A stretch of DNA of 64,000 bases from Futiania mangrovi (GCF_024158125.1 NZ_JAMZFT010000004.1:62001-126000), one strand, 5' to 3'; numbered from the stretch's first letter, positions 49,150 through 52,150 are shown. Program-made: numbers and translations. The notes: generated by a model from the letters alone, not told the origin.

Positions 49150-50667
49150 TCAGTGTGTTCCGCGCCGGGCCATGAAGGCTGAGGCGAACTCTAGGAGTAC
49201 GGCGTCGGGCAGCGGGGCCGTTCCTTCGTGTGCGACGACGAGGACGCCCGCCACGGGATGCGCACCCGCCAGCAGGCGTAGCGTGCGTTCCGCGGCAAGC
49301 GCCCGGCGGGAAGGCACGCTCTCGCCGTCGACGTGGAGAAAGGTGTCTGCGAACACCATGCGCGGCCCTTCGGTCTGATCGAGCACAACGGTCTCGCCCT
49401 GAAAGCAATAGCCGCCACCGCACACGCGGCGCGGCCGGCGCTCCTTGATCCACCAGAAGGCGTCTGGCGCGAGGTCGAGCGCCGCGCCCGCAACCTTTGC
49501 GCCGCGGCGCGCCGCCAGCGCCTGGAAGACCAGGACTCTTTGCCCGCCTTGCTCATAGACGGCCGCCTGGGTTGCGTCTGCATGCGGCGCGGCCGGGCTC
49601 CAGTCCTGCGGGCCGGTCACCTTCTCCCATCCGCCCACGCTTTGCGGCGCGGAAATGGAGGGGATGGCGGCGGCCGTCAGGCCCGGTGCCGGCCACGCGT
49701 GCGTCACGACGATCGCGGCGGCGGCGGCGGCGCCAGCCAGCGCGACCGCGCGGCGCGGACGCGCAACGCCTGCCTCGCGCACCGGCACGGTATCGCCTGC
49801 CTGGTCGCGCATGCGATAGGCCGCGGCAAGGAGCAGCGCGAGAATGACCGCCAGAACCGCCCACCCCACGCCGCGATGGGCGGAGATGTCCATCACCGCG
49901 CCCTGCCAGTGATTGTAAAGGACGATCAGGTTCACCCTTATGCCGTTCGCTACAATGGCCGCGACGGCCGCCGCCGCAGTCAGCGCCGCGGTCTTCAACA
50001 CCGTACGAAACAGCAGCAGGCCGAGCGTCAGGCCAACGAAGGACGTCGCGAGCAATTCTCCCAGGCCGGCGCAGGCAGCGACCACGGCATAGGGCTGACC
50101 CGCCACGGTGATGTTCAGGCCGTCGCGTACCGTCTCCAGTCCGGCGAGTGCGCTACCCTGCGCGACGAACCAGGCCGTAAGCGATGTCAGCGCCGGCAGC
50201 AATTGCTGGCCTGTCGGAACCAGAAAGACCACGAGCAGCAAGGGCGGCAGCGCCGCCCGGAAGGCATGCGGACCCAATCCCGCGTGCAGCACGCCGACCG
50301 CCATGCCGGCGAGCGCAAGGTGGCGGCCCTCGGCAATGCCGGCGAGGTCCGCAACGCTCCAACCTGCGGCGCACGCGATCGTCAAGGCGACGCCTGTCAG
50401 GCTGCCCGAGGGCGGTTCCTGCAGGATCCGCCCTCGCCGGTCCCACAAGATGTACAGCAGCGTGGGCAACACGAGGAAGCCATGGTTGTAGGTCTCGTTC
50501 GCCGCCCAGATGCGCACCATGTCGGCCGCGGTCGCTGCGTGGGCCGCCAGCAGGCTGACGAGTGCCAGCGCGAGGCCCGCACGTACCATCCCCCATCCGG
50601 GTGCGTATGCGGCCTGCGGTGTTGCCGCGAGGCTTCCGGAGGTTCCTGCGGGATGCGCCCGGCTCAT
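49150..50667 (-). CDS. Exosortase fused to EpsI-like domain
   Basis: A 505-residue membrane protein. Residues 30-290 form the eight-helix exosortase core with the presumed catalytic Cys199 in VAACAGLGELLA, Arg244 in NGIRVNLIVLYNH and His264 in SAHRGVGW. An upstream HGFLVLPTLLYILW motif is also typical. After another helix, residues 320-505 match the EpsI/DUF3485 type domain (PQSVGGWEKVTG, and CGGGYCFQGE with two Cys). Exosortases cleave C-terminal sorting signals at the inner membrane. The ATG overlaps the sterol-desaturase stop by 4 bp. The fusion resembles the XrtD-like arrangement, but the family is not certain. Confidence 0.92.
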   Translation of the reverse strand: MSRAHPAGTSGSLAATPQAAYAPGWGMVRAGLALALVSLLAAHAATAADMVRIWAANETYNHGFLVLPTLLYILWDRRGRILQEPPSGSLTGVALTIACAAGWSVADLAGIAEGRHLALAGMAVGVLHAGLGPHAFRAALPPLLLVVFLVPTGQQLLPALTSLTAWFVAQGSALAGLETVRDGLNITVAGQPYAVVAACAGLGELLATSFVGLTLGLLLFRTVLKTAALTAAAAVAAIVANGIRVNLIVLYNHWQGAVMDISAHRGVGWAVLAVILALLLAAAYRMRDQAGDTVPVREAGVARPRRAVALAGAAAAAAIVVTHAWPAPGLTAAAIPSISAPQSVGGWEKVTGPQDWSPAAPHADATQAAVYEQGGQRVLVFQALAARRGAKVAGAALDLAPDAFWWIKERRPRRVCGGGYCFQGETVVLDQTEGPRMVFADTFLHVDGESVPSRRALAAERTLRLLAGAHPVAGVLVVAHEGTAPLPDAVLLEFASAFMARRGTH

Positions 50668-51521
50668 TCGGCGGCTTCGCCGGCGGGGGGCTGCGCGCGC
50701 CCGGCGTCCGGAACGGGAGCGCCCGCCTGCCGGTCGCGGACGAAGGGCAGCGCGAGTGTGCGCAGGAAGCGCATGTCGTCCGGCTCCCGGAAATACTCGA
50801 GGCCCGCCGTGATCTCGTCCAGACGCTCGCTTTCCGGCGCGCGGTAGGTTCCGAATGTCCGGTCCCAGAAGGAGAAGACCACGCCATAGTTGCTGTCGGT
50901 CTGCGGCTGCCATGTCGAGTGATGGATGAAATGCATTCCCGGCGTCACGAAAATCGTGCGCACCGCGCGATCCAGACCTGCGGGCCATTGCAGGTTGGCA
51001 TGCGACCAGATGGTCACGGCGACCGCCAGGATCGCATAAAGCAGGATACCCTCCGCCGTCAGACCGAGGCCGCCCACGATGGCGAGCGTCAGAACCATGC
51101 TGCCAAGGGTCTCAAGCGGATGGTGCCGCTCTGCGGTGGTGAAGTCGATTTCGGTTTCCGCGTGGTGGACCAGATGCAGGCGCCACAGGAGGGCGGAGCG
51201 GTGCAGGACCACGTGCTCGGCATATTTGCAGGCATCGAGGATCAGGACCGTGGCGGCTGCGGCCAGCCACTCCGACCCGATCAGCGGGCGTAGCAGGCCG
51301 TGTTCGGCGGCAAATGCGGACCCCGCGACCTCGATCGCCGTCGCGGGCAGCACGACGCGGTGCAACAACAGCGTCATGGCATAAAGGCCGCCGTTCGTTG
51401 TCCAGCGGATCGCAAGGCTGACCCGGTGGCGATGCCACGGTGCGAAAAGCTCCAGCAGCGCGAAAACGATCAATGCGACGTAGAAGGCGTTCGCCTGTAC
51501 CAGCGTGATGATCTCTGACAT
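50664..51521 (-). CDS. Sterol desaturase / fatty acid hydroxylase family protein
   Basis: The 285-residue membrane di-iron oxygenase-type protein has four to five helices and the histidine clusters HVVLH (103-107), HLVHH (116-120), RHHPLE (132-137), SHAN and HFIHH (197-201). This is the family fold that hydroxylates or desaturates sterols, fatty acids or carotenoids. It lies between the 51-residue sorting-signal protein and the exosortase, with its stop overlapping the exosortase start. That is an unusual neighbour for an exosortase and suggests modification of a lipid or anchor used in the same pathway. That role is inferred. Confidence 0.92.
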   Translation of the reverse strand: MSEIITLVQANAFYVALIVFALLELFAPWHRHRVSLAIRWTTNGGLYAMTLLLHRVVLPATAIEVAGSAFAAEHGLLRPLIGSEWLAAAATVLILDACKYAEHVVLHRSALLWRLHLVHHAETEIDFTTAERHHPLETLGSMVLTLAIVGGLGLTAEGILLYAILAVAVTIWSHANLQWPAGLDRAVRTIFVTPGMHFIHHSTWQPQTDSNYGVVFSFWDRTFGTYRAPESERLDEITAGLEYFREPDDMRFLRTLALPFVRDRQAGAPVPDAGRAQPPAGEAAE

Positions 51522-51559
51522 CCGTTCTGCCCGGCCTTGTAGCGGCGTCCGGCGAGGAG

Positions 51560-51592
51560 GCGGCCGGAATCCGGGTGCCCGGTGCCGGCCGC
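51560..51592 (-). other. Nested hairpin between the tiny substrate gene and the desaturase
   Basis: An 8-bp outer stem (GCGGCCGG 51560-51567 with CCGGCCGC 51585-51592) encloses a 5-bp inner stem (CCGGG/CCCGG, 51571-51582). It has no T run. Lying 14 bp past the small gene's stop, it could stabilise or partly terminate the transcript so that the substrate outnumbers the exosortase. Inferred. Confidence 0.6.
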
Positions 51593-51606
51593 GCCCCGTC
51601 TGCCGG

Positions 51607-51762
51607 TTACTTTCTGCGGCGCGCCAGATAGACGCCGCCAACCACCGCCGCCGCCGCGAGACCCAGAATGCTGGGGCCGGGCAGGGTCGGCACGGGACCG
51701 CTCGCAAGCGCCGGCGTTGCAAGCAGCACAGCCGGTGCGATCAGGGTCAGGATACGAGACAT
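51607..51762 (-). CDS. 51-residue signal peptide plus C-terminal sorting signal protein
   Basis: The whole protein is a signal peptide (residues 1-20, ending PALA), about ten residues starting SGPVPTLPGP, a hydrophobic helix (SILGLAAAAVVGGVYLA) and a basic end RRRK. This is the tripartite form of an exosortase target with almost nothing between. GGAGGG lies 4-5 nt before the ATG at 51762. It heads the exosortase operon and is preceded by a near-consensus sigma-54 promoter. The motif VPTLPGPS is not the standard PEP-CTERM motif. After both cleavages only a peptide of about 8-12 residues would be released or anchored. Confidence 0.78.
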   Translation of the reverse strand: MSRILTLIAPAVLLATPALASGPVPTLPGPSILGLAAAAVVGGVYLARRRK

Positions 51763-51851
51763 GGAACCCTCCATCATTGTCTCTTCTTGTTTGCCGCATC
51801 CGAAGAAGCGGCAGGGGCGCGCCAGTCCGGCGTCCCCTGGAGGGTCTGACA

Positions 51852-51867
51852 AGCAATAATTGTGCCC
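51852..51867 (-). promoter_or_regulatory. Sigma-54 (-24/-12) promoter of the exosortase operon
   Basis: On the minus strand GGGCACAATTATTGCT keeps the invariant GG (51866-51865) and GC (51854-51853) 10 bp apart and differs from TGGCACG-N4-TTGCW at only two positions. The small gene starts 90 bp downstream. It lies in the 388-bp gap 51763-52150, which also has an AT-rich imperfect inverted repeat (CCCATT...TCAAAT / ATTTGAATGGG, 51865-51917) that could be an activator or enhancer site. No gene is seen in the gap. Confidence 0.75.
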
Positions 51868-52150
51868 ATTTCGCACTCAAATATTTCAATAACTTGCGAC
51901 CATATGATTTGAATGGGTGAAAAGAAGGCTGACGGTGCGTTTTCCATTGTGGAAAAGTCCGGAGCGACGGGGCGAATTCAGTCCCCTGCGCCCTGACCTG
52001 TTTTCAGCAGTCGCTCGATCAACGGGTGTCTTTGCGACCTGTCGAGCACTTGGGATCGCTATCGCCGCAAGGTCGGGAAATGTCGGCGGCGCATGACGTC
52101 GTCCCCCCAGGCGGAGACGGAGGCCCGTTCGCATTGGGCAAAGCGATCTC

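Follow-up and report, generated by a model that had tools for sequence, protein, structure and literature searches.

The PEP-CTERM/EpsH (exosortase A) system with PrsK, PrsR and sigma-54 joins substrates carrying a tripartite C-terminal signal to an EpsH-family Cys/Arg/His enzyme and an EpsI partner, and in that work Haft and colleagues found sigma-54 boxes preceding 99 of 167 proteobacterial PEP-CTERM genes (Haft 2006, PMC1569441). For one RpoN-dependent PEP-CTERM gene, pepA of floc-forming bacteria, which encodes a protein of ordinary size and comes without a hydroxylase, the sigma-54 promoter has been mapped experimentally (PMC9850573). In the same superfamily, the archaeosortase ArtA of haloarchaea is reported to carry out C-terminal processing that is followed by covalent lipid attachment of the substrate (PMC7157517). 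A different line of relatives comprises OlsE, an ornithine lipid hydroxylase, and other lipid enzymes of the FA_hydroxylase superfamily, which share the PF04116 domain with its histidine motifs. Dedicated single-target exosortase systems, XrtE/VPEID-CTERM, were reportedly described by Haft in 2012; they comprise a second exosortase encoded beside its candidate target. We know of no hydroxylase partner of ArtA. No acceptor is known to us to which exosortases join their substrates, and a search of the open-access literature gave none either.

We analysed a stretch of 64,000 nucleotides, referred to as the window, from an alphaproteobacterial genome of 3.39 Mb in five contigs, with relatives compared at the level of the class. 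An earlier note on this DNA had described a small operon, and its genes, their order, coordinates and sequences were all confirmed in the sequence, as was the ATGA overlap shared by the hydroxylase and exosortase genes at 50664-50667. The operon runs on the minus strand throughout, from the micro-protein gene through the FA_hydroxylase gene to the exosortase-EpsI fusion gene, with the following features:

51940-51956, minus strand: dyad TTTTCC-ACAAT-GGAAAA, from sequence reading, with the sigma-54 box about 75 nt downstream; candidate activator site of the PrsR type
51853-51866, minus strand: sigma-54 -24/-12 promoter box GGCACAATTATTGC, within TGGGCACAATTATTGCTTGT (51849-51868)
51607-51762, minus strand: putative micro exosortase substrate, 51 aa, from its ORF, signal anatomy and counterparts in four other families
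51549-51606, minus strand: strong G+C-rich hairpin between the micro-gene and the hydroxylase gene, from RNA folding
50664-51521, minus strand: membrane di-iron enzyme of the FA_hydroxylase (sterol desaturase) family, 285 aa, from PF04116 and His motifs
49150-50667, minus strand: exosortase with a fused divergent EpsI domain, 505 aa, from PF09721; EpsI part at about 49150-49785

Like the PEP-CTERM/EpsH system, the locus combines a tripartite C-terminal signal with an EpsH-family Cys/Arg/His enzyme and an EpsI partner, and it has a sigma-54 box before the substrate gene and PrsR in the genome. It differs in that the substrate is nearly devoid of a mature part, in that the operon includes a membrane hydroxylase, and in that the exosortase stays below the cut-off for exosortase A, XrtA (TIGR03109; 183.9 bits against 208). 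The promoter class is shared with pepA. A second exosortase beside a candidate target is also a feature of XrtE/VPEID-CTERM, whereas the motif and the hydroxylase partner of the window are different from that system. The dyad may serve as an activator site, and the hairpin (51515-51612 folds at -49.8 kcal/mol, z -2.5) possibly gives unequal expression of the micro-gene and the hydroxylase gene. We conclude that the window holds a sigma-54-type micro-substrate/hydroxylase module, here with its own exosortase.

The micro-protein is made up of a signal peptide ending in PALA, the segment SGPVPTLPGP, a hydrophobic helix and RRRK, and GGAGG lies immediately 5' of its ATG. Its signal peptide, motif, hydrophobic helix and basic C terminus form a PEP-CTERM architecture in which PGP replaces PEP. 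Against the PEP-CTERM sorting domain (TIGR02595, NCBIfam) it scores 12.6 bits, under the curated cut-off of 16; the protein appears PEP-CTERM-substrate-like, with borderline formal membership in TIGR02595. It looks like an exosortase substrate with about ten residues between both signals, and the minute remnant that the earlier note had read there is borne out. Judged from these patterns, signal peptidase and exosortase would cleave the protein to leave a predicted remnant of 5-11 residues, SGPVPTLP.. in the window and GIPVPPVSV, APPAPVEV, GAVIVPI, SNIIVV, TTAIVV and SQVNLTSV at other loci, which is too short to be a folded domain. The tripartite anatomy was found only this once in six frames of the 64-kb window and 104 kb of other DNA from the same genome. 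A chance ORF was ruled out by this unique anatomy, by its own Shine-Dalgarno sequence, by the sigma-54 box and by the counterparts elsewhere. Searching with the window micro-protein as a single sequence returned mainly chance matches to signal peptides and one decayed relative. The latter (locus L137, 855-1010, plus strand, genome G371) is probably a decayed micro PEP-CTERM gene, in which a signal peptide and a TAA stop are followed by LPEPSMLGLVALGVAG...

The exosortase exceeds the cut-offs of PF09721 (150.7 bits, cut-off 25.7) and TIGR02602 (131.2, cut-off 105.55). Cys199, Arg244 and His264, which had been placed in family positions before, are indeed invariant across 12 aligned exosortases. 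The Asp before His264 is missing, the window enzyme having SA-HRGVGW (window 49870-49880) versus DHxxYGW in nearly all relatives, and its activity or specificity may differ. Pfam and NCBIfam profiles for the EpsI domain (TIGR02914, PF11984) found no match in the window protein, whereas 10 of the 12 alignment members match. The fused C-terminal part scored 58 bits against an EpsI profile made from 11 relatives, the best of 1,000 shuffles reaching 7; a fused domain unrelated to EpsI was ruled out by this score. Foldseek comparison of the exosortase structure model with the PDB gave no significant match. A single-protein scan of 84,980 species yielded no relative, while a scan with a three-row exosortase profile gave 37 GTDB loci at 24-40% identity. 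No FA_hydroxylase gene or micro-gene was found beside the exosortase at these 37 loci or at about 20 loci from sampled genomes, so the co-occurrence of the trio that the earlier note had proposed to measure was absent from every other exosortase locus examined.

Contig C1 of the window's genome encodes a second exosortase, of the canonical XrtA type, next to a glycosyltransferase-like gene and, 8 kb from the exosortase, PrsR (TIGR02915; 662 bits, cut-off 502.6). Seven of the 15 ordinary PEP-CTERM genes in this genome have GGCA[CT]N5TTGC upstream, where 0.19 would be expected by chance (p = 3e-10); the sigma-54 consensus was counted 4 times in 128 kb of strand. The start codon of the micro-gene follows about 90 nt after GGCACAATTATTGC, which has the -24/-12 form of the PrsR/sigma-54 regulon, and by this promoter the window operon can be assigned to the PEP-CTERM regulon reported by Haft and colleagues. 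Since the operon shares the promoter of that regulon, the dedicated single-substrate exosortase proposed in the earlier note is not established; the other substrates and the second exosortase in the genome speak against it, and the trio was found at none of the other exosortase loci examined. The pattern of XrtE-type systems, one target per exosortase with both conserved together, was not found for the window.

The hydroxylase belongs to PF04116 (89.1 bits, cut-off 31), and the His columns of the superfamily are invariant in an eight-row alignment. OlsE (NF052566) is its only named NCBIfam match, at 55.8 bits far under the cut-off of 475, and the window enzyme is not OlsE. The best PDB match of its structure model, the sphingolipid fatty-acid hydroxylase Scs7p, is weak (E 0.4).

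A micro-protein/hydroxylase pair recurs in four other alphaproteobacterial families, none of them that of the window organism, as a PEP-CTERM-like protein of 55-74 aa whose gene precedes an FA_hydroxylase gene by 14-119 nt. In genome G146 a 55-aa PEP-CTERM protein is followed by the FA_hydroxylase gene after 17 nt; G230 has three tandem micro-genes (57, 56 and 57 aa) and then the FA_hydroxylase gene after 14 nt; and the distance is 66 nt for the 56-aa micro-protein of G092 and 119 nt for the 74-aa micro-protein of G313. TIGR02595 scores are 24.4 for G146, 21.6, 20.3 and 25.5 for G230 and 16.0 for G313, all at or above the cut-off of 16; the G092 protein did not appear among the TIGR02595 matches. 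This recurrence shows the link between micro-protein and oxygenase to be real, in agreement with the earlier note, and a sigma-54 box is present at two of the four pairs. Conservation of the small ORF together with the exosortase, on which the note had made its reading depend, was not found, and is seen with the hydroxylase instead: no exosortase lies beside the pair in any of the four other genomes. The pair is sporadic, because a phylum-wide profile search of 388 genomes gave no further full-length micro-proteins. None was found in a plasmid collection, in which hydroxylase matches are common (189 records) and exosortase matches are only distant, from Vibrio and Photobacterium. In phylogenetic trees the five paired hydroxylases sit on long branches that do not belong to the main alphaproteobacterial group of homologues; they were not recovered as a single clade, which is not rejected either (p-AU 0.27), and the pair may have more than one origin. 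The G313 pair (locus L231, 9-3382, plus strand) lies directly downstream of genes for MdoG (periplasmic glucan) and a family 2 glycosyltransferase, the latter reading as MdoH-like.

The tiny remnant and the recurrent partnership with an enzyme of lipid-hydroxylase type lead us to propose, tentatively and as a serious possibility short of a probable one, that the remnant of 5-11 residues is transferred by the exosortase to a lipid carrier, which the hydroxylase modifies. PrsR and RNA polymerase-sigma-54 would turn the operon on together with the PEP-CTERM regulon, and the hairpin would allow excess production of the small protein. Sec export and signal peptidase would leave a 5-11-residue stub anchored by the C-terminal helix; the exosortase would then cleave at P-x-P, and the stub would go to an amine- or hydroxyl-bearing membrane lipid or EPS-carrier lipid. 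The hydroxylase would oxidise this acceptor to give a lipid that could receive the peptide or present it. The micro-protein would serve as a peptide tag for a lipid and not as the carrier of a folded domain. Cutting would fall to the general exosortase of the genome in the other families, and to the second exosortase inside the operon in the window. The nearest named hydroxylase family, OlsE, is a lipid enzyme, which supports this proposal as the best explanation. Also in its favour are the recurrence of the pair, the placement of micro-ORFs and sigma-54 boxes at hydroxylase loci, the selection on the sorting signal of the G230 copies, the TIGR02595 scores of the G146, G230 and G313 micro-proteins, and PrsR in the window's genome. 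The lipid anchor reported for archaeosortase substrates (PMC7157517) makes a lipid carrier plausible by analogy, and ArtA may serve as a model for the mechanism, whereas its substrates are large surface proteins and its lipids archaeal. We count against the proposal the PGP motif and the sub-cut-off PEP_CTERM score of the window micro-protein, the divergence of the paired hydroxylases and the missing Asp in the exosortase.

The micro-protein could instead remain uncleaved and serve the hydroxylase as a small membrane subunit or regulator with two helices; its likeness to an exosortase signal would then be accidental or reflect only an anchor. A hydrophobic helix at each end of the micro-proteins, the sub-cut-off PEP_CTERM score of the window copy and the pairing without an adjoining exosortase in four genomes are consistent with such a role, which we nevertheless regard as unlikely. 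The micro-proteins of three of the four other loci lie at or above the curated PEP_CTERM cut-off, the window operon does include an exosortase, and a strong exosortase match is found in three of the four other pair genomes versus 19 of 384 genomes overall. Also speaking against an uncleaved partner are the tandem copies of G230, which differ in signal peptide and linker after divergence but have kept the sorting signal. Over 23 codons of this signal dN is 0.04-0.12 and dS 0.59-1.67, values that show purifying selection on its amino-acid sequence in these tandem micro-proteins. The purifying selection called for in the earlier note is accordingly present in homologous micro-ORFs, namely the G230 tandem copies on which it was measured, the window ORF itself being without close relatives.

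A more improbable role is that of a decoy or timing substrate, which would occupy the exosortase or report its load and so tune the PEP-CTERM regulon, with the hydroxylase adjusting the same membrane pathway. Sigma-54-type control in common with ordinary PEP-CTERM genes, the near absence of cargo and the three tandem copies in G230 would all suit a decoy, which leaves the recurrent hydroxylase partner unexplained.

It is equally improbable that an ordinary small PEP-CTERM gene came by chance to stand before unrelated genes, the three having no functional link. A micro-gene of this kind does occur without a hydroxylase (locus L235, 2691-2864, plus strand, genome G377), encoding a 57-aa protein in a PEP-CTERM gene cluster and preceded by a sigma-54-like box at -91, and the exosortase adjoins the pair in the window only. 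The recurrence in four other families argues against chance, as does the placement of the micro-ORFs. An automatic micro-ORF detector, run on 109 hydroxylase loci (418 kb) fetched by hydroxylase query, reported four micro-ORFs; three of these, correctly oriented, immediately precede the hydroxylase gene. This upstream slot accounts for 5% of the sequence searched (p = 5e-4), and a sigma-54 box precedes three of five paired and none of 107 unpaired hydroxylases (112 genes, p = 4e-5), both p values being descriptive since we settled on the motif and the regions in the course of inspection. Within the hydroxylase set, the box is found before paired genes only.

Release of the 5-11-residue peptide as a signal after both cuts, the alternative raised in the earlier note, was not borne out and is very unlikely: each remnant, such as SGPVPTLPGP, has the size of a signalling peptide, but the remnants vary widely among loci and among the three tandem copies, the neighbourhoods read contained no recognisable gene for a receptor or exporter, and release would not need a membrane hydroxylase.

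Returning to the transfer of the remnant to a hydroxylated lipid, a near-cargo-free substrate that recurs with an enzyme of a lipid-hydroxylase family points to a lipid acceptor for exosortases, and in the window the enzyme, the substrate and the candidate modifier of the acceptor are encoded by three adjacent genes. The recurrent pair, in some cases behind a promoter of the same class, suggests an undescribed tagging or modification of surface lipids. Searches of the open-access literature, outside which most subscription journals fall, found no report of the pairing and no paper naming an exosortase together with 'fatty acid hydroxylase' or 'sterol desaturase'. It is doubtful whether there is a sporadic class of micro-substrates with a 5-11-residue peptide put by the exosortase on a hydroxylated lipid (a peptidyl-lipid or lipopeptide) as the only product. 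If there were, a lipopeptide would arise through the joint work of the ribosome, signal peptidase, a membrane hydroxylase and an exosortase, which would be a new biosynthetic route and not protein sorting. If the product exists, its small size would let mass spectrometry read it in one piece.

Related promoters were seen elsewhere in the window's genome. On contig C4, 0.6 kb past the right end of the window, an AhpC-TSA/thioredoxin-like PEP-CTERM protein is encoded (locus L077, 1618-2262, minus strand). At up to 3 mismatches, the 20-bp sigma-54 box of the micro-gene has a single further match in the whole genome, the promoter TCGGTACAATTATTGCTTGC of this gene, and the protein is possibly a co-regulated second substrate. 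A second FA_hydroxylase paralogue on contig C2 (locus L076, 3577-4500, minus strand) is preceded at about -66 by TGGCACGCCCCTTGC, a perfect sigma-54 box, and no micro-gene intervenes.
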